Source: Chitinophaga sancti (GTDB lineage: Bacteria; Bacteroidota; Bacteroidia; Chitinophagales; Chitinophagaceae). Taken from it: DNA of 64,000 nt. The translations under genes and the position numbers were made by a program. A model generated the notes under the pieces. That model was given only the letters and a program-made list of their open reading frames with translations, was not told the origin of the DNA and ran no database searches. The stretch lies in assembly GCF_034087045.1 (NCBI RefSeq), contig NZ_CP139247.1:496001-560000 (forward strand). The letters are read 5' to 3'. Below, piece by piece: positions 3,294 through 38,156 of the stretch; within the stretch, counting starts at the first letter, position 1, and each line of letters begins with the position of its first letter.

Positions 3294-5013
3294 GGGTCTG
3301 CTGAATAAGTTTTCCGATGAATTATATTTCATTTTGACACCTTGCTATTTACCATTCCATACGTCTCATATATCGAGGTCTAAGTTGTGCATCCGGGCAA
3401 CTCACCATTATCGTTAAATAACCCTCTGTTACCAGCCAGTAATAGATTTGGAGTAATGACAAAAAAGAACCTGCTGCCAGTTTAAGCAGATTCATAACAA
3501 AGTAAATAGACATCACCCAACTCTCAGCTGTATCCTTAAGACGGGCCTTGATCTTACCCAGACCGTATGCATTTTTCCCCTGTCCAAATTTCCCTTCAAT
3601 CGCATTTCGTTCCGGCATCTGCTTTTGCAATAATCGCTTTTGCTGCTTACTATCTGATGAGGGCCGACCCAATGGCTTGCCAACATAACGGATCCCTTTT
3701 TCCTTCATGTATCGTCGGTTTTCACGTGTGCCGAACAACTGATCTCCTAATACCCGCTCCGGATAACACCCAAACAAGCGTTTATGGGTTTCCAGGCATT
3801 CGATTAGTAATCCTCCTTCATTGTAATTATCCCAACTCAGCTTCTCAATATGTGTGTAACCATCTTTCAACAACACCAGTTGCTTGCTGCCAAACTCCGT
3901 TGATACGCGGTCTTTGCCTCTCGGCATCGGACGCACATGCGGTTGATAGATACTTACAATCCGATCAGATATTTTCTGTTCTCTTTTCTTATACATCTCT
4001 ACCTGCTGACGATACATTTCCTGGATCACTTGTATTAACGTCCACTCTTTCGGTTTCAATGTCTCCTTAAAAGTAGGTCCTGTTTCAATCAGCCAGTTGA
4101 TATACTTTAAATCCCGCTTAACATATTGCAATTGCTGACGGATACCCCTGCGTATGTCTCTTTTGCTTTTGTTTTTCTTTTTGGCAATGTTCAAATATTG
4201 CTTCCTGGCTATATTGCGATACATCCGCGGCATAATCAGTTCAGCAGCCAGACATCCCCGCTCTATTATCCCTTCCAATTGACGGCGCCCCTCATTTAAT
4301 AACTTAATATCCGTTGGATAATCGATCTGTTGCTCTGACACCGTCGCGTCTAACATCAATGTTCCTGATAGTCCTTCAGATGGCGTTTCTTTTACTATCT
4401 CTGCATCCGCCTGGCAGCCAACTTTATTGCTCTCTCCTCCATCCCCATCACTTTCATCCTTACTGCCGGCATCCGATGTTTTCTCTTCTTTCGCTTTGGT
4501 TAATCCCGCTTCCTGCAAGATAATCTCATTCAACCTGGACATCACCTCTACGCCTAACCGTTTTCTAATACTGACCATCAGCGATGCATCAAAGGGAGCT
4601 TCCTGTTGAAAACTGCTTAGACCTACAAAATATTGCAGATATATGTTTTCTGTGATCTGCTCTACTACCTCACGATCGTCTATATTCAGTATATGTTTGA
4701 TGATCACCGCACCAATTACCATCCGCGCACTCAAGGTTGGCGCTCCGAAATCAGCCCGCATCTTTTTATAATACACATCCGCCAGTTTGTCCCACGGAAT
4801 CTTTGCAGCGAGTATAACCCACCTGTTGGAAGTGGATAACTGCTGCGAGAAGGGTGTGGAAAAACCTTCTAATGTCAATTGTTTTGCAGGTGTATAACGT
4901 ATCATGGCTGCATGCTTTTGGAGATGATTCATTCAATATTTATACACTATTCAAGCAAAAAATAGGCCATACAACATTGATTAACAATAGATTAATACTT
5001 ATTCAGCACACCC
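3294..5013 (-). mobile_element. insertion sequence, IS1182/IS5-like, complete
   Basis: The ends are 17-base inverted repeats, GGGTCTGCTGAATAAGT at 3294-3310 and its complement at 4997-5013 with one mismatch. Both sides are flanked by TA (3292-3293 and 5014-5015), which fits a 2-base target duplication. The element is 1720 bases and holds one intact transposase gene on the minus strand, with 81 bases between its start and the right end. Nothing in it looks broken, so it may be active. The right end has landed at the 5' side of the reading frame that continues to 5843. Confidence 0.85.
3349..4932 (-). CDS. transposase, IS1182/IS5-type DDE
   Basis: Catalyses transposition of the element at 3294-5013. 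The 527-residue protein has an N-terminal DUF772-like region (PTLSARMVIGAVIIKHIL, about residues 65-85). The DDE core follows: first Asp in LMLDATVSEQQ (about residue 195), second in RVLGDQLFGT (about 400), and Glu in RNAIEGKFGQGK (about 445). Between domains there is an acidic Ser/Asp/Gly-rich linker at about residues 150-180 and a basic insert. Length is normal for the family. The ATG is the first one inside the right inverted repeat. It has no neighbours within the element. Family name is given from motif recognition; IS1182 versus a related IS5 group would need a database match. Confidence 0.9.
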   Translation of the reverse strand: MNHLQKHAAMIRYTPAKQLTLEGFSTPFSQQLSTSNRWVILAAKIPWDKLADVYYKKMRADFGAPTLSARMVIGAVIIKHILNIDDREVVEQITENIYLQYFVGLSSFQQEAPFDASLMVSIRKRLGVEVMSRLNEIILQEAGLTKAKEEKTSDAGSKDESDGDGGESNKVGCQADAEIVKETPSEGLSGTLMLDATVSEQQIDYPTDIKLLNEGRRQLEGIIERGCLAAELIMPRMYRNIARKQYLNIAKKKNKSKRDIRRGIRQQLQYVKRDLKYINWLIETGPTFKETLKPKEWTLIQVIQEMYRQQVEMYKKREQKISDRIVSIYQPHVRPMPRGKDRVSTEFGSKQLVLLKDGYTHIEKLSWDNYNEGGLLIECLETHKRLFGCYPERVLGDQLFGTRENRRYMKEKGIRYVGKPLGRPSSDSKQQKRLLQKQMPERNAIEGKFGQGKNAYGLGKIKARLKDTAESWVMSIYFVMNLLKLAAGSFLSLLQIYYWLVTEGYLTIMVSCPDAQLRPRYMRRMEW

Positions 5014-20499: not shown

Positions 20500-20573
20500 G
20501 GATCAGTAGTTCAGTTGGTTAGAATGCCGCCCTGTCACGGCGGAGGTCGCGGGTTCGAGTCCCGTCTGGTCCG
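20500..20573 (+). tRNA. tRNA-Asp (GTC)
   Basis: 74 bases fold into a full cloverleaf. The acceptor stem is GGATCAG with CTGGTCC, the D arm AGTTCAGTTGGTTAGAAT, the anticodon arm CCGCCCTGTCACGGCGG with anticodon GTC, and the T arm CGCGGGTTCGAGTCCCG. The discriminator is G and CCA is not encoded. The gene is overlapped on the other strand by the 3' end of the serine recombinase frame, so the 3' half of the tRNA is the probable attachment site. Confidence 0.97.
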
Positions 20574-22146
20574 CAGAAGGGGACTGATTATCGAAAAGAT
20601 GATCGGTCCCTTTTTCATTTGAGGGTGGATTGCCCGATAGGTGGGCAATCCGTGAGAAAATGTAGTTGACTTTTGGGGTTCGAAATGCCTCATTTTGGCG
20701 GTCGTAGATGATTCCGTTGGGGAATACGAGGGTTTGGAGTTTTTCTTTGGCTCCAGTATCGCTGGAATGCCATACCCTAGCCAGTTTGGAAGAAAGAGAT
20801 ATGGCTTGATTTATTACTTCTTCAGGGTTCGAAATACTGCCGGTGCATTTTTCCAGTTTGGTGGAAATAAGATTCCGCTCCTTACTATACCGGGCGTAAA
20901 ACTTATCGAACGTCTCCTGCCCTATTTCTTTTAATACATACCTACTTTCCTCCAAGCCGTCGATCTTGTTATCAACCTCCTTTAATTGGGCGGTTAATAT
21001 TTTCTGTTGTTCTATGTTTTCCCTGTTCATTTCATAATACTCCTCAATAAGTACCTTTCTAAGGGAATCTATCTGATTATCATCAAAACAGAATTGACTT
21101 AATAACTGCTCAAATAGTTCATGCATCCTTTTGGCGCTTTTATTGCATTTACAGCCATCCTTTCGGCACTTGTAATACCACAGGGATTTTGCTTTGACTA
21201 TATACCCTGTAAATGGCTGGTTGCAGGTATCACATTTAATGAAAATTTTAAGGGGTACAGCATCTTGTTCCTTTTTGTGTGGCACTCCGTATCCTCCCGA
21301 ACCCTGATGAATGTTATTCACCTTTAAAAAGATTTCAGGGCTTATCATCTTCTCATGGTCACCTTCGATTATTTTCCCTTCCAATAAACCGTGATTAATC
21401 ATACCGCAATAGAAAGGACGTTTAAATATCTTAGTCAACTGCTGCTTATACATTTTTACTCCCATAGCCTTCAGCCTTGAAATAATTTCCTCATTCTTCA
21501 TACCCTCAGCCTTCCAGATAAATGCTTTCTTTATCTTTTTACCTACCTCGTTTACAACAATTTTACGCTGGTCGTTAATCTTCACTATATCATATCCCTG
21601 TGGTGGCTTAGTAACCCAAATACCTTTGTCAAACTTTTCTATCATCCCGGCAACTGCCTTTTGCTTACGCAGTTGATTATCGTACTGACTAAACAAAAAG
21701 GTGATATTCTGATGCAATACACCGCTAGGATTAGATGTATCTGTGGGCTGAGTTACCGCAAATATGGTAACACCATAATTTTCCCTTAATTCCTCGGCTA
21801 ATTTAATAGCAGCACCTCCTGTTCGGGAGAAACGATCAAGTGTATAAACTAATATATGACTCACTTTCCCCTTGCGGGTTTTAATAAAGTCCAACATCCG
21901 ATTAAACTCTTTACGGCCATCGGTTTTCGCGCTTTCATAAGTGCCTCCAAAGTAACCAATTATACCCAGGTTGTTCTTACGAGCAGATTCTTCGATTGAT
22001 TTACGCTGAACATCCAGGCTTAAATTATGGTCTGCCTGTTCCTTGCTGGATACCCTGGTATATACCACAGCAGCCTGTGCGGCCACTTTAACAGGTTGTT
22101 TTTTGGAATAGTTTCCAAATTGTTTAAAAGCGTTAATAATACTCAT
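20503..22146 (-). CDS. large serine recombinase (site-specific integrase)
   Basis: 547 codons. The resolvase domain (about residues 25-165) has YTRVSSKEQ with the catalytic Ser and LVYTLDRFSR. A recombinase domain (about 180-290), a zinc ribbon (CDTCNQPF...CRKDGCKC, about 303-337) and a coiled coil (about 360-420) follow. It would integrate or excise a mobile element by serine-linked strand exchange. The frame runs through the whole tRNA-Asp on the other strand; its last codons (GLEPATSAVTGRH) are just antisense tRNA, so the natural C-terminus probably changes when the element is excised. The start ATG overlaps the stop of a 59-residue ORF. Copies of its parts occur at 6590-7043 and 10475-10552. 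Confidence 0.92.
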   Translation of the reverse strand: MSIINAFKQFGNYSKKQPVKVAAQAAVVYTRVSSKEQADHNLSLDVQRKSIEESARKNNLGIIGYFGGTYESAKTDGRKEFNRMLDFIKTRKGKVSHILVYTLDRFSRTGGAAIKLAEELRENYGVTIFAVTQPTDTSNPSGVLHQNITFLFSQYDNQLRKQKAVAGMIEKFDKGIWVTKPPQGYDIVKINDQRKIVVNEVGKKIKKAFIWKAEGMKNEEIISRLKAMGVKMYKQQLTKIFKRPFYCGMINHGLLEGKIIEGDHEKMISPEIFLKVNNIHQGSGGYGVPHKKEQDAVPLKIFIKCDTCNQPFTGYIVKAKSLWYYKCRKDGCKCNKSAKRMHELFEQLLSQFCFDDNQIDSLRKVLIEEYYEMNRENIEQQKILTAQLKEVDNKIDGLEESRYVLKEIGQETFDKFYARYSKERNLISTKLEKCTGSISNPEEVINQAISLSSKLARVWHSSDTGAKEKLQTLVFPNGIIYDRQNEAFRTPKVNYIFSRIAHLSGNPPSNEKGTDHLFDNQSPSADQTGLEPATSAVTGRHSNQLNY

Positions 22147-22322
22147 GCGGCTAATTTTTCAGGTGTTGGATTAAGATCTACAACTGGTGTCTCAATGGGT
22201 TCTGAGTGGTTAACAGATAGTAGGATCCTCGCTAATATTTTAAGTGTTATTAAAAGTTCAGGGTCTGATATATTAAGGCTTTCAGTATTCTTTGATGGTT
22301 CAGTTAACTCAGTGTTGCACAT
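22143..22322 (-). CDS. 59-residue protein coupled to the serine recombinase
   Basis: An ATG at 22322 opens a frame MCNTELTEPSKNTESLNISD... ending ...NPTPEKLAA, whose TGA overlaps the recombinase ATG (ATGA). This arrangement means translational coupling and supports a real gene. The protein is acidic at first, with a hydrophobic helix LLITLKILARILLSV in the middle. I do not know a family. It could be a recombination directionality factor or a regulator of the recombinase; this is inference from position only. The IS701-like element ends 8 bases upstream of the ATG, so the native ribosome binding site and promoter have been displaced. Confidence 0.65.
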   Translation of the reverse strand: MCNTELTEPSKNTESLNISDPELLITLKILARILLSVNHSEPIETPVVDLNPTPEKLAA

Positions 22323-22329
22323 AACTCTG

Positions 22330-23770
22330 TTTAGTCAAATTATAGTTCTTTACATATTATAGTCGAAACTTTGCACGGAAGCGGGTTTTGCATACCTTTG
22401 CATCATCCCAAAAGAAAAGCCCAAACAGTAGAAACCGAACGGGCTTAATTAATAAACAAAAATATGAGTCGAAAATAAGCAATTTCCGACTCGTAGAGAG
22501 TCGGTTGTTACAATTTCTTCTCAGCTTCACATTTTACTTTAAAAGCAAGACAAAAGACGGAACAGCAAATGCATCTTCTTATTTGAAGGGCTTAATGGTT
22601 AGTCGACGACGTAATTGCCAGGTGATGGCTCAGGAACTTCAGAATACTAGTCAGCAATGCTTACACCATTTTATAACCGTTGGCAAGTGGTGTTATTCGA
22701 AGCTGATGGATAAGATAACTTTAGACTTCTGGCATCTTTTACAACAGTGTGGACTGGAAGACGATACTTGTTTTATAGTTGATGAAAGCGGCAATCCTAA
22801 AAAGGGGAAGCTCTCTGCAGGGGTGAAAAGGCAGTACTGCGGCCAGATTGGAAAAACAGACAACTGTCAGGTTGGTGTGTTTGGAGCTTTATGCGGAGGT
22901 AGCCTTGTTAATCTTGTTCAAGCCAGATTGTCTTTAGGATCAGAAGCCACTAAAATTGACCTTGCTAAGGAAATCATTGATCATGTAGTGCTAAAATTAA
23001 AGGTGAAGGTAAAATGGGTCTGCTTTGATGCATTTTATGGCCGAGATGCAAATCTATTGTGTTATTTGATAAAGATAGGTTTACCATTCGTTGCCGATGT
23101 ACCAGATAGCCATGGGATCTGGCTGGAGGCATTCCAAATGAGAGTTCCAGTCAGCGTACCAGGAAAAAGAGGACCTAAAAATGTTTACGCACGACCAAAC
23201 AGAGAATCTATATCAATCCGTAAATACATGTCTGGATTGAAAAAGAAGGATTGGACGTGGATGAAAATACGTCATCAAAGCAAAAAAACTGTTTGCCTGG
23301 TTCCATTGCAGAGAGATTTATATATTCAATCCGTTAACAGAGAAGCGTCAGGAGCTTCAATTATTAATTAGAAAAGATGTTGATGGTACCATTAAATATA
23401 GCCAGTGCTATAAACCTGGGGCATCAATAAAAGAGTTGGCTTATATGCAGTGCAAGCGATTCTTTATTGAAAAATCATTTAGAGAAGGTAAAAAAGAGTT
23501 AGGACTAAATGAGTATCAGACCCGGAGCGCTCAAAGCTGGCATAAGCACATGGCTATGGTGATGTTGGCGCAACTGTTCCTGAACACTCAAAAACTCTTT
23601 TGCTATGAAGAAAAGGTTTGGGTAACAACACAAGATATCATCTTATTGATAAGATCTGTTCTCAAATTAACATTACGATCAATACGAAATATCATAGATG
23701 ATATTCTTGCAAAACAGCCACCAGATTATAGAAAAATGAAGAAATTATTATTTATTCGAATTTGACTAAA
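22330..23770 (+). mobile_element. IS701-like insertion sequence
   Basis: A 12-base inverted repeat TTTAGTCAAATT at 22330-22341 is matched by AATTTGACTAAA at 23759-23770. Between them lies one transposase gene, in two frames. The element is about 1.44 kb. I could not define a target duplication with certainty. It separates the recombinase/small ORF (8 bases to the left) from the plus-strand gene at 23781 (10 bases to the right), so it probably landed in a divergent promoter region and may now drive or silence either side. Confidence 0.75.
22388..23765 (+). pseudogene. IS701-family transposase, frameshifted
   Basis: The first frame (22388-23371) carries the DDE start VDESGNPKKGKLSAGVKRQYCGQ, then DNCQVGVFGALCGG and VKWVCFDAFYGRD (second Asp), typical of IS701/IS4-like transposases. 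It then runs to a false end. The second frame continues the protein as LFAWFHCREIYIFNPLTEKR, KELAYMQCKRFFIEKSFREGKKELGL (catalytic Glu) and on to 23765. The switch fits an A7 run at 23282-23288. This is either an inactivating indel, a sequencing error in the homopolymer, or rarely a programmed shift. The exact start is uncertain; conserved similarity begins near SFTFYFKSKTKDGTAN. Confidence 0.8.
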
Positions 23771-31537: not shown

Positions 31538-31849
31538 ATGAAATCATTAAGTGAAAAATTTCAGTTCCTGAATCTGGAAGCAGACAGAGTATTGACCCGT
31601 GATGAGTTAAAAAGTATTTATGGCGGTGCAGAATGTGGTCCGGCAGCAGGCGGTGCCGTATGCCCTAACAACCTTTGCTGCAGTGCCTATGGCTTCTGTG
31701 GAGATACGACTGGGTATTGTGATGCAAATTGTGATAATCTATGTAGTGAACCAAGCGGTAAATGTACAACAGGCGGAGGAATGCCCGGTACTTGTACAGC
31801 AGTTACTTGTCTTGCAACTGGAGGTTATTTCTACGAATGCTTTGCTTAA
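31538..31849 (+). CDS. GG-leader precursor with hevein-like (chitin-binding) core
   Basis: 103 residues. Residues 1-30 are a double-glycine leader (LTRDELKSIYGG) for the C39 exporter. The core at 33-69 has eight Cys at 33, 42, 47, 48, 54, 61, 65, 69, spaced x8, x4, 0, x5, x6, x3, x3. Hevein has x8, x4, 0, x5, x6, x5, x3. The CPNNLCC motif is identical to hevein. Ser49, Tyr51, Phe53 and Tyr60 fall on hevein's sugar-binding Ser19, Trp21, Trp23, Tyr30. Four more Cys (76, 86, 91, 101) form a Gly/Thr-rich tail. A secreted, disulfide-rich chitin/GlcNAc-binding peptide is predicted; activity is unknown. A terminator follows directly. Confidence 0.9.
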   Translation: MKSLSEKFQFLNLEADRVLTRDELKSIYGGAECGPAAGGAVCPNNLCCSAYGFCGDTTGYCDANCDNLCSEPSGKCTTGGGMPGTCTAVTCLATGGYFYECFA

Positions 31850-31865
31850 ATTAACCATTCAACTT

Positions 31866-31898
31866 GCCTGATAATTTTTATTATCAGGCTTTTTTTTT
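31866..31898 (+). terminator. terminator/attenuator after the peptide gene
   Basis: GCCTGATAA (31866-31874) pairs with TTATCAGGC (31881-31889) and nine T follow. It sits between the peptide gene and the TlpA-like gene, 12 bases before the latter's ATG. It probably raises the peptide-to-downstream ratio by ending most transcripts while some read through. Confidence 0.85.
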
Positions 31899-31910: not shown

Positions 31911-32981
31911 ATGATTAAATATATTCTGATATTAAAATTGTTGTTACCAGTCCTGATAGCAAAGGGTCAGTCATTTGAATTAAATGGTATTATTGAAGGG
32001 AAAGATAGCGGCGTTATATTTCTCTATTATAAAAGCACAGAACGATATCAACTGGACAGTGCTAAGATTAAAAATGGCCATTTTCATTTTCAGGGGGAAA
32101 TTGCCGGACCAGTAATCGCTTCTCTGAATAAATTCAGACCGGAAAAGCTGAAGAGTATTCACGACCGGAATGAATTCTATATAGACCCTACAAAAATGGA
32201 TATCACTGTGGAAGCCGATAAGTTTGAGCATTTCACTCTGAAAGGTGCTGCGACCGACAAGGACCGGGTATCGCTTATAAAATCCCAACAGTCAGAACGG
32301 GATAGTATCAACCTGCTCTCAGCTGCTATCGAAGCCACCACTGATAAGAATTTAAAATTAACATATATTCAGGCTACCAACCGGCTTAACCATATTATTC
32401 ATGAAAAGGATTCGGTGTTCATCGTGCATCATCCGGATTCATATGTTGCTGCAGATCTGTTGCAAAAAAGTATAAGTTTTCATACCATTCGTTTTACCTC
32501 ATACGACAGCCTTTATCAAAGAATGCCACTGGCCATTCAGCAGAGTGAAGTAGGCAAAAAGATAAAGGTTACAGTTGACAAAGAGAAAGCAGTTTCACCA
32601 GGAATGATAGCACCCGTATTCCCTGCCATAGATACCCTGACAGGTAAAAAGGCCATATTGCTGGACTTCTGGGCATCCTGGTGTATTCCCTGCCGCCAGC
32701 TGGCTCCACAGCTACATCAGCTATATGAGCAGTATAAGAATAAGGTTGAATTTATCAGCATATCACTGGACAAGAATAAAGCTGACTGGATAAAAGCCAC
32801 TCAGGAAGATAATATCAGCTGGGTGAATATACTTGAAGACAATCCCCAACAGTTATCCGGCAGGTACTTTGTATCCACTATACCTACTTATGTATTGATA
32901 GGAGCTGATAAAAAGATCATAGGTTATTATGCGCCGCTAACATGGCAGGAGCTCAAGACCGCGCTGGTCAATGTTAACTAA
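31911..32981 (+). CDS. TlpA-like thioredoxin with DUF4369 N-terminus
   Basis: 356 residues with a signal peptide (about 1-20). A DUF4369 beta domain follows (FELNGIIEGKDSGVIFLYYK). The C-terminal AhpC/TSA-type thioredoxin fold has ILLDFWASWCIPCRQLAP with the WCxxC pair (about 256-260) and the cis-Pro in VSTIPTYVLIG. Relatives reduce or reshuffle disulfides in the periplasm. Here it follows the twelve-Cys peptide and could correct wrong disulfides while the VKOR-DsbA protein makes them. It is last in the operon; a partial terminator lies just upstream. The ATG at 31911 is the first in frame before the hydrophobic stretch. Confidence 0.88.
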   Translation: MIKYILILKLLLPVLIAKGQSFELNGIIEGKDSGVIFLYYKSTERYQLDSAKIKNGHFHFQGEIAGPVIASLNKFRPEKLKSIHDRNEFYIDPTKMDITVEADKFEHFTLKGAATDKDRVSLIKSQQSERDSINLLSAAIEATTDKNLKLTYIQATNRLNHIIHEKDSVFIVHHPDSYVAADLLQKSISFHTIRFTSYDSLYQRMPLAIQQSEVGKKIKVTVDKEKAVSPGMIAPVFPAIDTLTGKKAILLDFWASWCIPCRQLAPQLHQLYEQYKNKVEFISISLDKNKADWIKATQEDNISWVNILEDNPQQLSGRYFVSTIPTYVLIGADKKIIGYYAPLTWQELKTALVNVN

Positions 32982-33042
32982 TTATAAATTCCCCCTGAGG
33001 TGCCGGCGGTAGGTATGCCTTTCATTCTGAAGTTATATAAGT

Positions 33043-33399
33043 ATGAAAAGGCTATTACTAATCCCCGCACTATTCCTGTTAGTGATGACAACTTTGCCCA
33101 GCAAACAGGGCATTTTATTCTGATTACAATAGATGGTTTCAGACCCGACTTTTATCAGGATGCTTCCTGGGGTATGGTGAATCTGCGCATGATGAGAGAT
33201 AGTTGTACTTATGCAGATGGTGTAAACAGTGTATTCCCAACTGTCACCTATCCCAACCGCACTTCCCTGATTACAGGTGTGACCCCGTCAAAACATGGCA
33301 TCTATTACAACACTCCCTTTGAATCCAAAGGGGCTACCGGTGTCTTGTATTTTCATTACGATTCATAAAAGGTGCCAACGCTTTGGGATGCGGTACATA
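33043..33399 (+). pseudogene. type I phosphodiesterase (ENPP-like), frameshifted and truncated
   Basis: A signal peptide MKRLLLIPALFLLVMTTL starts at 33043. The frame then has to shift near 33095 into AQQTGHFILITIDGFRPDFY (metal-binding Asp), with VFPTVTYPNRTSLITGV holding the nucleophile Thr, as in alkaline-phosphatase-superfamily pyrophosphatases. A TAA interrupts at about 33366, after which KVPTLWDAVHIG continues in frame, and similarity ends near 33400. The rest of the roughly 400-residue enzyme is gone. It is a decayed gene, directly downstream of the peptide operon, and abuts the DUF262 remnant. Confidence 0.8.
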
Positions 33400-34224
33400 T
33401 TGGAACGGTATGGAAAAGTTGACCTAGTAGTTAGAGGCTACCAGTCAAACCTATATTCCATTTACTACGCAACAAGATTGGAGCCCCAAAAGTATCTGGA
33501 AAGCAATGGAGAGGACCACTCCAAACCAGACCTGTATTATTTGAGCGAGGCTTATAAATGTATAAAGGACTGGTTCTTTGACCTGAAACGAGGCGTATCC
33601 GACGACGTGATGAATGATATCAGAAGGATACTCCTTCCTTCTTTATAAGACTCAAGCAAAATTCCTGAATGGAGCGTCCAGCCAATCTGGTATGAAATAA
33701 AAGACGAGAACGAAAAAGTGAAGATCTCTTCAAACGCCTAAACCGCGGCAAAATTCCTTTAACCAGTACCGAACTGATAAAGGCCAAATTCGTAATCACG
33801 GATGCTTTTAATGGGCTAGCCGAATACGATCAAATAAAACGAAAAACCCAATTCATACAAATATGGGAACCCGCAAAAAATTATAGCAATAAAATAGAAT
33901 ACCTCTTTAATATAAAAACAGGAAATAAAGACAAGGAAAAGGATCCCCCTGTATACCTTTATTCGTTTCTTTGACACCAAAGGAACCGCCGAAACCCCGT
34001 GGGAAAAATGGATTGAAATAGAAAAACATACCGACACACACTCCCTCTTCTACTGGTACCTCGACAAGAACTGCTACCATCAAATAGGCTATTTTATAGC
34101 CACTGGCCCCAAAGGTAGCAATTTAACATCCATAAAATCCATTCACACCAGAACCGACTTCGACAAAAAGATAAAAGAGCTCATTTCCCAAACCATTCCC
34201 GACAATTCGGAAGATCTTCTTTAA
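33400..34224 (+). pseudogene. decayed DUF262-family gene
   Basis: Pieces in different frames are collinear with a DUF262 protein: SEAYKCIKDWFFDL (to 33645), IPEWSVQPIWYEIKDENEK, DLFKRLNRGKIPLTSTELIK (about 33735-33790, the family's F-x-RLN-x-G...L-x-x-ELIK signature), then FNGLAEYDQIKRKTQFIQ and the far C-terminal HTDTHSLFYWYLDKNCYH and FDKKIKELISQTI, ending at 34222-34224. At least three frameshifts and a missing N-terminus make it non-functional. It differs from the intact DUF262 gene at 7052, so it is another family member. Confidence 0.75.
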
Positions 34225-34949: not shown

Positions 34950-35990
34950 CTAAGCATTTATATCCCTTATTCTCTGTTGTGCTAACTGTATTGCCATCTG
35001 TAGCTTTTGTTTCAGCAATTCTTTTGATGGCAATTCAAGAAGATATTGCGCAACATGTATACCCGCCGAATCAAGTTCTAAAAGTTCTACCAATTCATCA
35101 TTTTTATCCGCACAAAGAATTAATCCAATTGGAGAAAGTTCATGAGGTTGTTGTTCATATTTAGCCAGCCACCTGAGATACAATTCCATCTGGCTTTTAT
35201 GACTATGCTCAAACTTCCCTAATTTGAGGTCTATAGCAACTAAACGCCTTAGCTTACGGTGATAAAATAACAGATCTATATAATAATCTGTATCATCAAT
35301 GGAAATTCTCTTTTGCCTGGCGAGAAAAGCAAAATCATTGCCTAGCTCTAATATGAATAACTGTAGCTGGTATATAATTGCCTGCTCAAGATCTCTTTCA
35401 TTGTATGTATCCCGTAAACCAAGAAAATCAAGTATATAGGGATCTTTAATAGTAAAATCTACTGTCATTCCTCTCCTATTTTGTAATAATTCAAGGTCAT
35501 TCTTGATTACAAGCTCAGGCTTTTTGCTGATGGCAGTACGCTCATACAGCATAGAATTAATTCGTTCCTGTAGCTGCCGGCTACTCCACCTCTCATTTGA
35601 GGCCATTGTCAAGTAAAAGTCCCGCTGCACTTCATCTTTTAAATAGGCAATGGTTTTTATGTGCGTCCAGCTCAATTGTCTCCGCACTGCGGAGACAATT
35701 TGTGTTTTTGTAAAGATTTCCGCACAACGGAGGCAATGCCTTAATGTTTTATCATCCCAGCCTTTGCCAAAGGCTTCCATTAACGAAATAGATATCTTCT
35801 TAACTATTTCCTTTCCGTAGCCAGCCCTTTGATTCCCCAGAACATAATTATTTAATTTTGTGCCAATATTCCAGTATAATAGTACGAGTTCTGTATTTAC
35901 TGCTATTAGCACCTTGTGCTTACTATTTTCAATTATCTGACTTATTTCGTCAAATAAGATTTTCTCTTCTTTTATCAATTTATTCTCCAT
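34950..35990 (-). CDS. YhcG-family PD-(D/E)XK nuclease-domain protein
   Basis: 346 residues of the DUF1016/YhcG type. The N-terminal half (about 1-150: VLLYWNIGTKLNNYVL, AGYGKEIVKKIS) is a DNA-binding helical region. The C-terminal half has the nuclease core DDTDYYIDLLFYHRKLRRLVAIDLKLGKF (about 228-256), with the D...(E/D)xK signature as IDLL and DLK. Members are restriction/defence or toxin-like nucleases often found on mobile DNA. Length is close to the usual 340-380. The promoter must lie in the 36000 region. It lies right after repeat copy D. Confidence 0.9.
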   Translation of the reverse strand: MENKLIKEEKILFDEISQIIENSKHKVLIAVNTELVLLYWNIGTKLNNYVLGNQRAGYGKEIVKKISISLMEAFGKGWDDKTLRHCLRCAEIFTKTQIVSAVRRQLSWTHIKTIAYLKDEVQRDFYLTMASNERWSSRQLQERINSMLYERTAISKKPELVIKNDLELLQNRRGMTVDFTIKDPYILDFLGLRDTYNERDLEQAIIYQLQLFILELGNDFAFLARQKRISIDDTDYYIDLLFYHRKLRRLVAIDLKLGKFEHSHKSQMELYLRWLAKYEQQPHELSPIGLILCADKNDELVELLELDSAGIHVAQYLLELPSKELLKQKLQMAIQLAQQRIRDINA

Positions 35991-36385
35991 TCCAAAGATT
36001 CATTCGGTTGAAATATTTGAATGTATTAAAATTACTACATCCATAGATGAATAACAAATCTCCTTAAAGGATTCGTAGAGGTGTAAATAAATGAATATCA
36101 ATTAAATAACAAGATTTTCATTTAAAGAATAGCGCGAGTAACAAGGAGTTATAATTCACTTTTCAATTACCTTTGAGCAAAGCGGTATAATTGTTAAATG
36201 CTCTAATAAAGATCGCTGTAATTTAGTAATAGCAAATTCGATCTGCTGGATACACTGTGACACACATACGGGTTCCCAATATTTGACCAGAATATCCAGA
36301 GCCATTATGCTCTACGATTTTCAGAAGAAGCTTTAAACCTTTTTTAGTGTTTATGATTTAAATTTAGGAGAAATAGTTTTTGTTG
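35991..36385. other. intergenic region between divergent genes
   Basis: About 390 bases, AT-rich, holding the promoters of the YhcG gene (minus) and the small membrane gene (plus). I see no RNA gene or repeat in it. Confidence 0.4.
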
Positions 36386-36679
36386 ATGACAACCTTTAAT
36401 TACATAACAATAACATTATCACTAGGCGCACTTATTGTTTCAATTTTGACTTTTTGGCTTACAAGAATAAGAAGTGGGAAAGTTAAAATGACTAAACCAA
36501 CTATTATCTTCTTTGGCCCCGATGGTGGTGGCGAACGACACAACAAAGTATTTATTAGGACCTTACTATACAGTACTTCAGATAAAGGACAATATATTCA
36601 GAATATGTTTATTCGCCTCAGTAGAGCTGAATCGGTTCAGAATTTTAATGTTTGGGTGTATTTGTTTTCAACCCTATAA
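36386..36679 (+). pseudogene. small one-helix membrane protein, probably C-truncated
   Basis: About 97 residues (ATG 36386; a TTG two codons upstream, at 36380, lies closer to the AGGAG site). One transmembrane helix at the N-terminus (ITITLSLGALIVSILTFWL), then a short basic stretch and a beta-rich part (PTIIFFGPDGGG, KVFIRTLLYSTSDKGQYI, QNFNVWVY). The ending LFSTL looks like a frameshifted tail, so the family's C-terminal part is missing. Related proteins of unknown function occur in accessory DNA across bacteria. I give no function. Confidence 0.5.
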
Positions 36680-36722
36680 GTATTCGAAGTCAAATCGTTT
36701 CTGCGCTTAGGTTTCCAGTTAA

Positions 36723-38156
36723 CTAATTTTCGAATAAGGCTTCCATCGTAATTTCTTTCTGTATAAGATTAACATAGTTATCATTTTTTTTGGCTCCATA
36801 TGTAGTTATAAGAGTAAGAAATAATGTTTTACGGGTTTGGGTTTTCTGTCGGAAAACTCTTTCTTTTTGCGCTAATGCAGCAGCATATTTTTTGTCTATA
36901 ACAAATTCAGAAATGGAAAATTTAATTTCACACAGATTGATACAGTTATCTCTCCTATCAAATAGAAGGTCTATTTGTGCTCCATCTTCTTTCTCTTTAG
37001 CAGAGTAACGCCATGGAGACACTTCTGTATAAACATCAGCTATTCCTATTGCTTTTTTAATCTGTTGCTCATGTTTAAGGCATATACTTTCGAATGCAAG
37101 CCCACTCCAGCTTTTCCATGACGAGCTTTCTGAAAGTCGCATCCAGACACCCGCTCCATGTGATTTACTATTCTCTATAAATTTTATATAAAAAATTGAA
37201 TACTCATCTGTTAGCTTATAGATACTATCCCGGGAAGTTTTTTCAAAAGGCACATAGGGTGTGATAAATCCAGACTCCGACAGTTCTTCCAATAATTGTG
37301 TAGTACCTCCGCCGGAAGTCAGCGAGCAGACTTTAATTATTTCATTTCTTGTCAGCCCTCCTGGTTTAGCTGCCAACGCCCTGATCACTTCCATGTGATG
37401 TAAGGCTTCTTCGAATAATGAATGAAAAAGTATTTTGAATTCATTGTGCAATAACCCATTCTTGTTAAAACATGTTCTATCTAATACCTGCGCTGTACTC
37501 TCTCCTTTATTTACTTCTTTAAGATATAAAGGAACGCCACCCATTGCCATGTACAGTTGCAATAACTGATATTGATCCAGTTTTATCTTTCTACTATTCA
37601 AATACGCTTCCATCTCGCTAAGATTAAAAGGTAACAAGCGAATCCTTTTTGTTACCCTGTTATGTAGCCCTCCCCGGTTATTAATTACTTTCTGTATCAT
37701 CCATGACGCAGCAGACCCACAGATTACTACAACGAGGTTTTCCTGCCTGGAAGCCCACATATTCCAGAAATTTTCGAATGCCTGCATAAAGCCCGATCTT
37801 GGCGTTTGGATCCAGGGAAATTCATCAAAAAAGAGTACTCGCTTTTGCTTTTTTATAAGCGGGGCTACGTAACTTTCTAACAGGCTAAAGGCCTGTCTCC
37901 AATTACCTGGAATATCAATAGGTGAAACTTTCACAGAGCGGGTAAGGGCCTGAGCGAAATTAGCCAGTTGGTCACTAAGAATCGCATTATGAACACCTGA
38001 AAATTCAAAAATCAGCTCCTTTTGGTAAAAGTTCCGGATCAGAAAAGTTTTCCCGATTCTTCGTCTACCATATATTGCCACTAATTCAGCCTCATTGGAC
38101 AATAAAGCCCTTTGTAGTATAGCTTTTTCATCCTCTCTTCCTATAAGATATTCCAT
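36723..38156 (-). CDS. archaeal-type ATPase with DUF234 nuclease-like domain (1)
   Basis: 477 residues. MEYLIGREDEKAILQRALL leads to the P-loop YGRRRIGKTFLI (about 29-40). Walker B is VLFFDEFPWIQT (about 107-118), and ICGSAASWM is the sensor region. A winged helix at about 260-300 precedes the DUF234 domain with AQIDLLFDRRDNCINLCEIKF (about 410-430), which has the D...ExK spacing of PD-(D/E)XK nucleases. The family is found beside mobile DNA in archaea and bacteria; its role is not established. It has a perfect 18-base inverted repeat 12 bases before the ATG. A near-identical C-terminal copy occurs at 15643-16100, and a diverged full relative at 40433. Confidence 0.88.
   Translation of the reverse strand: MEYLIGREDEKAILQRALLSNEAELVAIYGRRRIGKTFLIRNFYQKELIFEFSGVHNAILSDQLANFAQALTRSVKVSPIDIPGNWRQAFSLLESYVAPLIKKQKRVLFFDEFPWIQTPRSGFMQAFENFWNMWASRQENLVVVICGSAASWMIQKVINNRGGLHNRVTKRIRLLPFNLSEMEAYLNSRKIKLDQYQLLQLYMAMGGVPLYLKEVNKGESTAQVLDRTCFNKNGLLHNEFKILFHSLFEEALHHMEVIRALAAKPGGLTRNEIIKVCSLTSGGGTTQLLEELSESGFITPYVPFEKTSRDSIYKLTDEYSIFYIKFIENSKSHGAGVWMRLSESSSWKSWSGLAFESICLKHEQQIKKAIGIADVYTEVSPWRYSAKEKEDGAQIDLLFDRRDNCINLCEIKFSISEFVIDKKYAAALAQKERVFRQKTQTRKTLFLTLITTYGAKKNDNYVNLIQKEITMEALFEN

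Follow-up and report, generated by a model that had tools for sequence, protein, structure and literature searches.

A genuine-looking hevein domain in a predicted leader-tagged, exported peptide of Chitinophaga sancti, encoded next to a VKOR-DsbA fusion

Hevein domains are chitin-binding modules best known from plants and fungi. An open reading frame of Chitinophaga sancti (31538-31849, + strand, in the 64,000-nucleotide stretch of DNA analysed here, the window) was predicted from its letters to encode such a domain behind a bacterial double-glycine leader. This raises the question of whether the domain is genuine and, if so, how a bacterium would make and export such a peptide and for what use. 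The ORF was found in the sequence and at the position given in the original prediction; of its 103 residues, the first 30 form a double-glycine leader and the other 73 a core that contains 12 Cys. The features of the locus are compiled in Table 1.

Table 1. Features of the hevein peptide locus (positions in the window; values are E values)
Feature	Position	Strand	Basis
ABC exporter with N-terminal C39 peptidase (PCAT), 731 aa	26000..28195	+	Pfam
HlyD-type membrane fusion protein, 426 aa	28202..29482	+	Pfam HlyD_3 3.8e-12
Small helix-turn-helix protein, 97 aa	29494..29787	+	HTH_Mga 2.1e-4
C39-like + VKOR + DsbA-like thioredoxin fusion, 542 aa	29845..31473	+	Pfam
Double-glycine leader, residues 1-30	31538..31627	+	Leave-three-out leader profile 4.1e-6
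Core peptide, residues 31-103, 12 Cys	31628..31846	+	ORF translation
Hevein (Chitin_bind_1) domain, residues 32-69	31631..31744	+	PF00187 1.9e-12
Four-Cys tail, residues 70-103	31745..31846	+	No Pfam match over cut-off
Intrinsic terminator, 10 pairs then T run	31866..31889	+	Pattern scan; directly 3' of peptide gene
TlpA-like thioredoxin with DUF4369	31911..32981	+	Thioredoxin_8 2.8e-21, DUF4369 1.6e-12; past terminator

The proposed hevein core was borne out by profile searches. Residues 32-69 matched Pfam Chitin_bind_1 (PF00187) over the entire profile (1-38 of 38) with 47.6 bits, above the curated cut-off of 27.8 bits, and a scan of the genome with the same profile returned the peptide at the identical place (E 3.7e-11). 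Eight Cys in hevein register (residues 33, 42, 47, 48, 54, 61, 65 and 69) were recovered with exactly the spacings that had been claimed (x8, x4, 0, x5, x6, x3, x3), and the tail holds the four further Cys ascribed to it (residues 76, 86, 91 and 101). Chance Cys spacing as the source of the match was excluded, as none of ten shuffles of the core with fixed Cys matched PF00187 at E<=10; the match thus rests on the residues and not on the Cys spacing alone. When 139 leader peptides including this one were scanned, 3 matched PF00187 and 136 did not (3/61 from the genus at E<=0.1 and 0/78 from the GTDB loci at E<=0.05). In the PDB, phmmer detected wheat germ agglutinin with E 4.3e-25 (over four domains) and hevein with E 7e-10, wheat germ agglutinins being the nearest solved structures by sequence.

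Ser49, Tyr51, Phe53 and Tyr60, named in the original prediction as GlcNAc-binding positions, do lie in the ligand columns of hevein, and we presume that they share the roles of the corresponding hevein residues. The Ser as well as the first and last Tyr of this set are kept in all four aligned relatives; Tyr51 and Phe53 occupy the columns of two hevein Trp, where wheat germ agglutinin domains likewise have Tyr and Phe. Structure prediction agreed in part: the first 17 Foldseek matches of a domain-only model in the PDB were all hevein-type, two of them antimicrobial peptides that we take to be hevein-like, but the mean pLDDT of the model, 73.3, is moderate and the best Foldseek E value was 8.5e-3. 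A model of the whole peptide (mean pLDDT 50.6) was of low confidence and too poor for use. Compared with the known members of the family (PF00187, CBM18; hevein, wheat germ agglutinin, plant chitinases), the peptide has a full-length profile match, a CPNNLCCS motif identical to that of wheat germ agglutinin domains, eight Cys in register and, like hevein, a Ser and three aromatic residues at the ligand positions. It differs from hevein in the spacing between Cys6 and Cys7 (x3 instead of x5), in Tyr and Phe replacing two Trp, in its additional four-Cys tail, its double-glycine leader and its bacterial origin. At the level of sequence, these results argue that the peptide carries a genuine hevein domain.

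The double-glycine leader was assessed with a profile of 54 sister-peptide leaders, from which all three hevein peptides had been left out. This profile ranked the proposed leader best of 536 ORFs (Table 1); earlier leader profiles are not independent evidence, because they included the leader itself. Curated models applied to this peptide alone gave a non-significant Pfam match (Bacteriocin_IIc, E 0.96) and no NCBIfam match at E<=1. Among the 61 related peptides of the genus, TIGR04149 (CFB GG leader) matched 37 and the “bacteriocin-like” model leader_Chryseo 32, both at E<=0.1. Cleavage is predicted after Gly30.

Neither the exporter and VKOR-DsbA genes next to the peptide nor the wider platform described below had figured in the original prediction. 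The peptide gene is the last in a + strand run of C39 ABC exporter, HlyD protein, helix-turn-helix protein, fusion and peptide, closed by the terminator, and with its short spacings (the HlyD gene starts 6 bases past the exporter gene) the run looks operon-like. The exporter matches Peptidase_C39 (2.5e-34), ABC_membrane (3.4e-33) and ABC_tran (9.3e-29) and retains Cys14 in DCGPT and the His of HYVVV, which we take to be catalytic; its C39 peptidase looks active. The fusion matches VKOR (1.2e-13), Peptidase_C39 (3.2e-8) and Thioredoxin_4 (9.3e-8). Its Cys219, Cys227, Cys298 and Cys301 (VKOR) and Cys413 and Cys416 (thioredoxin CxxC) are invariant in all 21 aligned fusions. Where the exporter has its catalytic Cys and His, the fusion has Asn and Phe, and none of the 21 shows a Cys or His in these columns. 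A Cys lies one column from the lost catalytic Cys in 7/21, so that some of these C39-like domains may not be fully dead, though the His is absent from all 21. The exporter and VKOR-DsbA genes strengthen the case for an exported hevein peptide.

The 97-residue protein is possibly a regulator; it reached 21.6 bits against HTH_Mga, under the cut-off of 23, and 20 of 122 related loci encode a relative (duplicates between both locus sets kept). The TlpA-like thioredoxin is a possible accessory of the system, with tblastn matches in 66 of the 122 loci that may reflect generic thioredoxin similarity. A lanthipeptide or radical-SAM peptide was considered and rejected, no such domains being found among 17 neighbouring proteins scanned (7 + 10; ORFs <180 aa outside the operon were mostly left out). 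Upstream of the operon, genes for a serine recombinase and a DDE-type transposase (20503-23371) suggest a variable island. On the other side, a phosphodiesterase-type ORF (33000-33648) appears broken into overlapping pieces in two frames, with the Pfam match in the first piece, and a DUF1016/YhcG nuclease and an ATPase on the - strand (34950-38156) match the PADLOC candidate defence families PDC-S02 and PDC-S27.

The fusion enzyme is widespread, and peptides of this leader type, with Cys-rich cores of other kinds, usually lie downstream of it. Relatives at E<=1e-20, some of them partial, occur in 39 of 79 Chitinophaga genomes, and a GTDB scan gave 261 matches, 80 of which were retained, with loci in Mucilaginibacter, Pedobacter, Parapedobacter, Niastella, Sediminibacterium and others. 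The genus set comprised 43 loci including the present window and shares some genomes with the GTDB set. A leader peptide lay within 2.5 kb downstream of the fusion gene in 31/43 genus and 64/80 GTDB loci, and anywhere in the examined stretch in 39/43 and 68/80. By profile, 12 genus and 16 GTDB loci had none within this distance on the same strand, and 4 and 12 had none anywhere in the stretch. Two of the four leaderless genus loci (L061 and L066) encode Cys peptides with odd leaders; in L061 (6651-7957), two peptides with a knottin-like C..C..CC..C..C pattern and a leader without GG stand beside the fusion gene. Nine tandem genes for six-Cys GG-leader peptides accompany a single fusion gene in L047 (2463-4922). 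The genome of C. sancti itself holds a second, distant VKOR fusion (L077, contig position about 8006 kb), followed by a six-Cys GG-leader peptide at 4652-4837 of that locus.

Among the sister cores, the LDL-receptor class A model matched 8 of the 61 genus peptides at E<=0.1 (best 6.9e-12), the one in L042 being weak (E 0.046). Searching all 79 genomes yielded 9 matches, spread over 5 of them and all in GG-leader peptides: seven in loci L067, L069, L070, L071 and L073, each beside a full-length fusion gene, and two in L084, a 3.1-kb stretch without one. None of the 78 GTDB-locus peptides matched LDL-receptor class A at E<=0.05. Other sisters resemble WAP, conotoxin and toxin_7 / knottin toxins, all under the Pfam cut-offs; weak matches to squash, Dickkopf and further families are leads only. 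The LDL-receptor class A peptides have leader type and fusion enzyme in common with the hevein peptide and, like it, a disulfide-rich core known from eukaryotes, but differ in fold and presumably in ligand. The hevein peptide is one cargo of this wider platform.

Even Cys counts are what would be expected of fully paired cysteines, and the cores of the platform were examined for parity. Of 137 unique cores, 130 had an even number of Cys (counting one truncated core with zero Cys as even) and 7 an odd number. Within 5-12 Cys, 124/130 cores were even compared to 129/321 control ORFs, i.e., other ORFs of the genus loci (Fisher 3.5e-31), and within a stricter 6-12 Cys, 124/128 compared to 129/168 (129 even, 39 odd; Fisher 2.8e-7); the peptides are related and not independent, which inflates both significance values. 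The 5-12 range took the place of a control of ORFs with >=4 Cys (267 even, 130 odd), which was not suitable since no Cys number is more common than four. Manual curation removed two ORFs, a truncated leader ORF in L052 and a weak leader-like fragment in L044; the peptides of L061 and L066 and six of the nine of L047 scored below the threshold of the leader profile and were not counted for parity. Cutting after a later GG (L110) turns the odd core of L049 into an even one.

In contrast to the platform, the hevein peptide is rare. Hevein has been called a eukaryotic innovation, with 13 bacterial homologues counted, in excerpts of a review of plant lectin evolution (PMC6362431). PF00187 was found in 3 of 79 Chitinophaga genomes, including the present one, and in 0/14 control genomes. 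In the second genome (G053), a DDE transposase gene stands where the leader of the copy starts, by which the peptide gene seems dispensable. The two copies agree in all 12 Cys and in the four ligand residues; core dN/dS is 0.51 (neighbours 0.055-0.25), a value resting on only 11 changes with one copy probably broken. The third, Chitinophaga sp. Cy-1792 (G057), encodes an intact, divergent GG-leader hevein peptide of 109 residues with 12 Cys, next to an exporter, HlyD protein and fusion that are 53%, 35% and 38% identical to those of C. sancti. Against PF00187 it scored 27.0 bits as a whole protein, just under the cut-off, and 29.2 bits in the genome scan; against wheat germ agglutinin, E was 1.6e-13.

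Protein database searches with the whole peptide and with region 31-72 returned its own sequence only. A three-row alignment retrieved, besides itself and the Cy-1792 peptide, a protein of Brassica carinata (59% identical across 38% of the query) as well as a protein with PF00182 + PF00187. No relative was confirmed among genome and viral contigs searched with the hevein alignment, and plasmids and phages gave no tblastn match. PF00187 scans of 395 phylum genomes gave at least the present peptide and one match under the cut-off, and in 394 family genomes the present genome stood alone among the candidates scored; with at most 18 candidates scored per genome, these are lower bounds, and the two samples overlap each other and the genus set. 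The match under the cut-off, in another family of the phylum (L005, G446), is weak and partial.

Searches of an open-access library turned up no description of GG-leader hevein peptides or of C39-like/VKOR/DsbA fusions with them. The nearest system found is that of the bacteroidetocins of Bacteroidetes, a tested precedent for an exporter, a thiol oxidoreductase and a four-Cys GG peptide; according to excerpts of PMC6671954, these likewise combine a GG-leader Cys peptide, an ABC exporter with double-glycine peptidase and a thiol oxidoreductase, leader cleavage and disulfide-dependent migration have been examined, and the peptides have been likened to class IIa bacteriocins and not to hevein. 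Their mature peptide, as given there, has 42 residues, four Cys and a 15-residue leader, in contrast to the 73-residue, 12-Cys hevein core. The TIGR04149 and leader_Chryseo families of NCBIfam supply the leader type of many sisters but do not match the hevein peptide, and, unlike the rSAM-modified RiPPs of TIGR04149, a scan of 17 neighbouring proteins showed no radical SAM domain at its locus.

We consider it probable that the peptide is a leader-tagged hevein peptide which is exported by the C39 ABC transporter with HlyD, receives its disulfides from the VKOR-DsbA fusion and likely binds chitin outside the cell. The leader-tagged peptide would be made ribosomally; the C39 domain of the exporter would recognise the leader and cut after Gly30, and the degenerate C39-like domain of the fusion would probably hold the leader and present the emerging core to the VKOR and DsbA parts. 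With the transporter and HlyD exporting the core, the DsbA-like part is predicted to oxidise it and to be recharged by VKOR, and a peptide with six disulfides would be released. The expected pairs are Cys33-48, 42-54, 47-61 and 65-69, presumed by analogy with the pairing in hevein, plus two in the tail. Binding to chitin is likely, judged from the domain and its ligand residues. That it serves against fungi, via the chitin of their walls, rather than attachment to chitin as food, is proposed with less confidence and is the least certain step.

The same gene types would also suit a class II-type bacteriocin directed against bacteria, with a hevein core whose ligand would be not chitin but peptidoglycan, which contains GlcNAc, or some other sugar of the surface. 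They are the types found with the bacteroidetocins, GG-leader peptides that kill Bacteroidales (excerpts of PMC6671954), and more than half of the related genus peptides carry leaders of the TIGR04149 or “bacteriocin-like” type. The hevein peptide itself, however, matches no bacteriocin model at E<=0.1, and the neighbours covered by a general domain scan gave no match to an immunity family. Moreover, the ligand residues conserved in it are those found in lectins that bind chitin, and we regard a bacteriocin as unlikely. An exported adhesin or chitin sensor, which would form a coat on chitin or on the cell surface and aid in finding or holding chitin with no killing, is only a little less doubtful. 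Chitinophaga uses chitin and the domain type would be apt, but a peptide carried by so few genomes of the genus, with unrelated cores such as LDL-receptor class A at sister loci, is easier to reconcile with variable weapons than with a nutrient role that the genus shares.

Finally, the gene could be a relic or a chance look-alike without function. Its rarity, the transposase gene found where the G053 copy begins and the core dN/dS point in this direction; against them stand the strong profile match, which shuffling abolished, the intact gene run and a second, divergent copy with 12 Cys, and we hold this reading to be very improbable. Returning to the exported chitin-binding peptide, it is quite possible, if short of probable, that Bacteroidota have a general production line for disulfide miniproteins of eukaryotic style. 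In it, the GG leader would be caught by a dead C39 domain, which would pass the core on to the tethered VKOR-DsbA oxidase at the exporter, and hevein, LDL-receptor class A and knottin-like cores would be swapped in and out as weapons or binders, with the hevein one as an antifungal chitin binder.

The hevein domain is found here in a leader-tagged, predicted exported peptide of Bacteroidota, whose leader type and oxidase are common to LDL-receptor class A and other Cys-rich cores. If the proposal is true, it would provide a clean test of leader-directed oxidative folding and a natural route to disulfide-rich peptides in bacteria, and miniproteins that bind chitin and possibly act against fungi could be obtained from bacteria.
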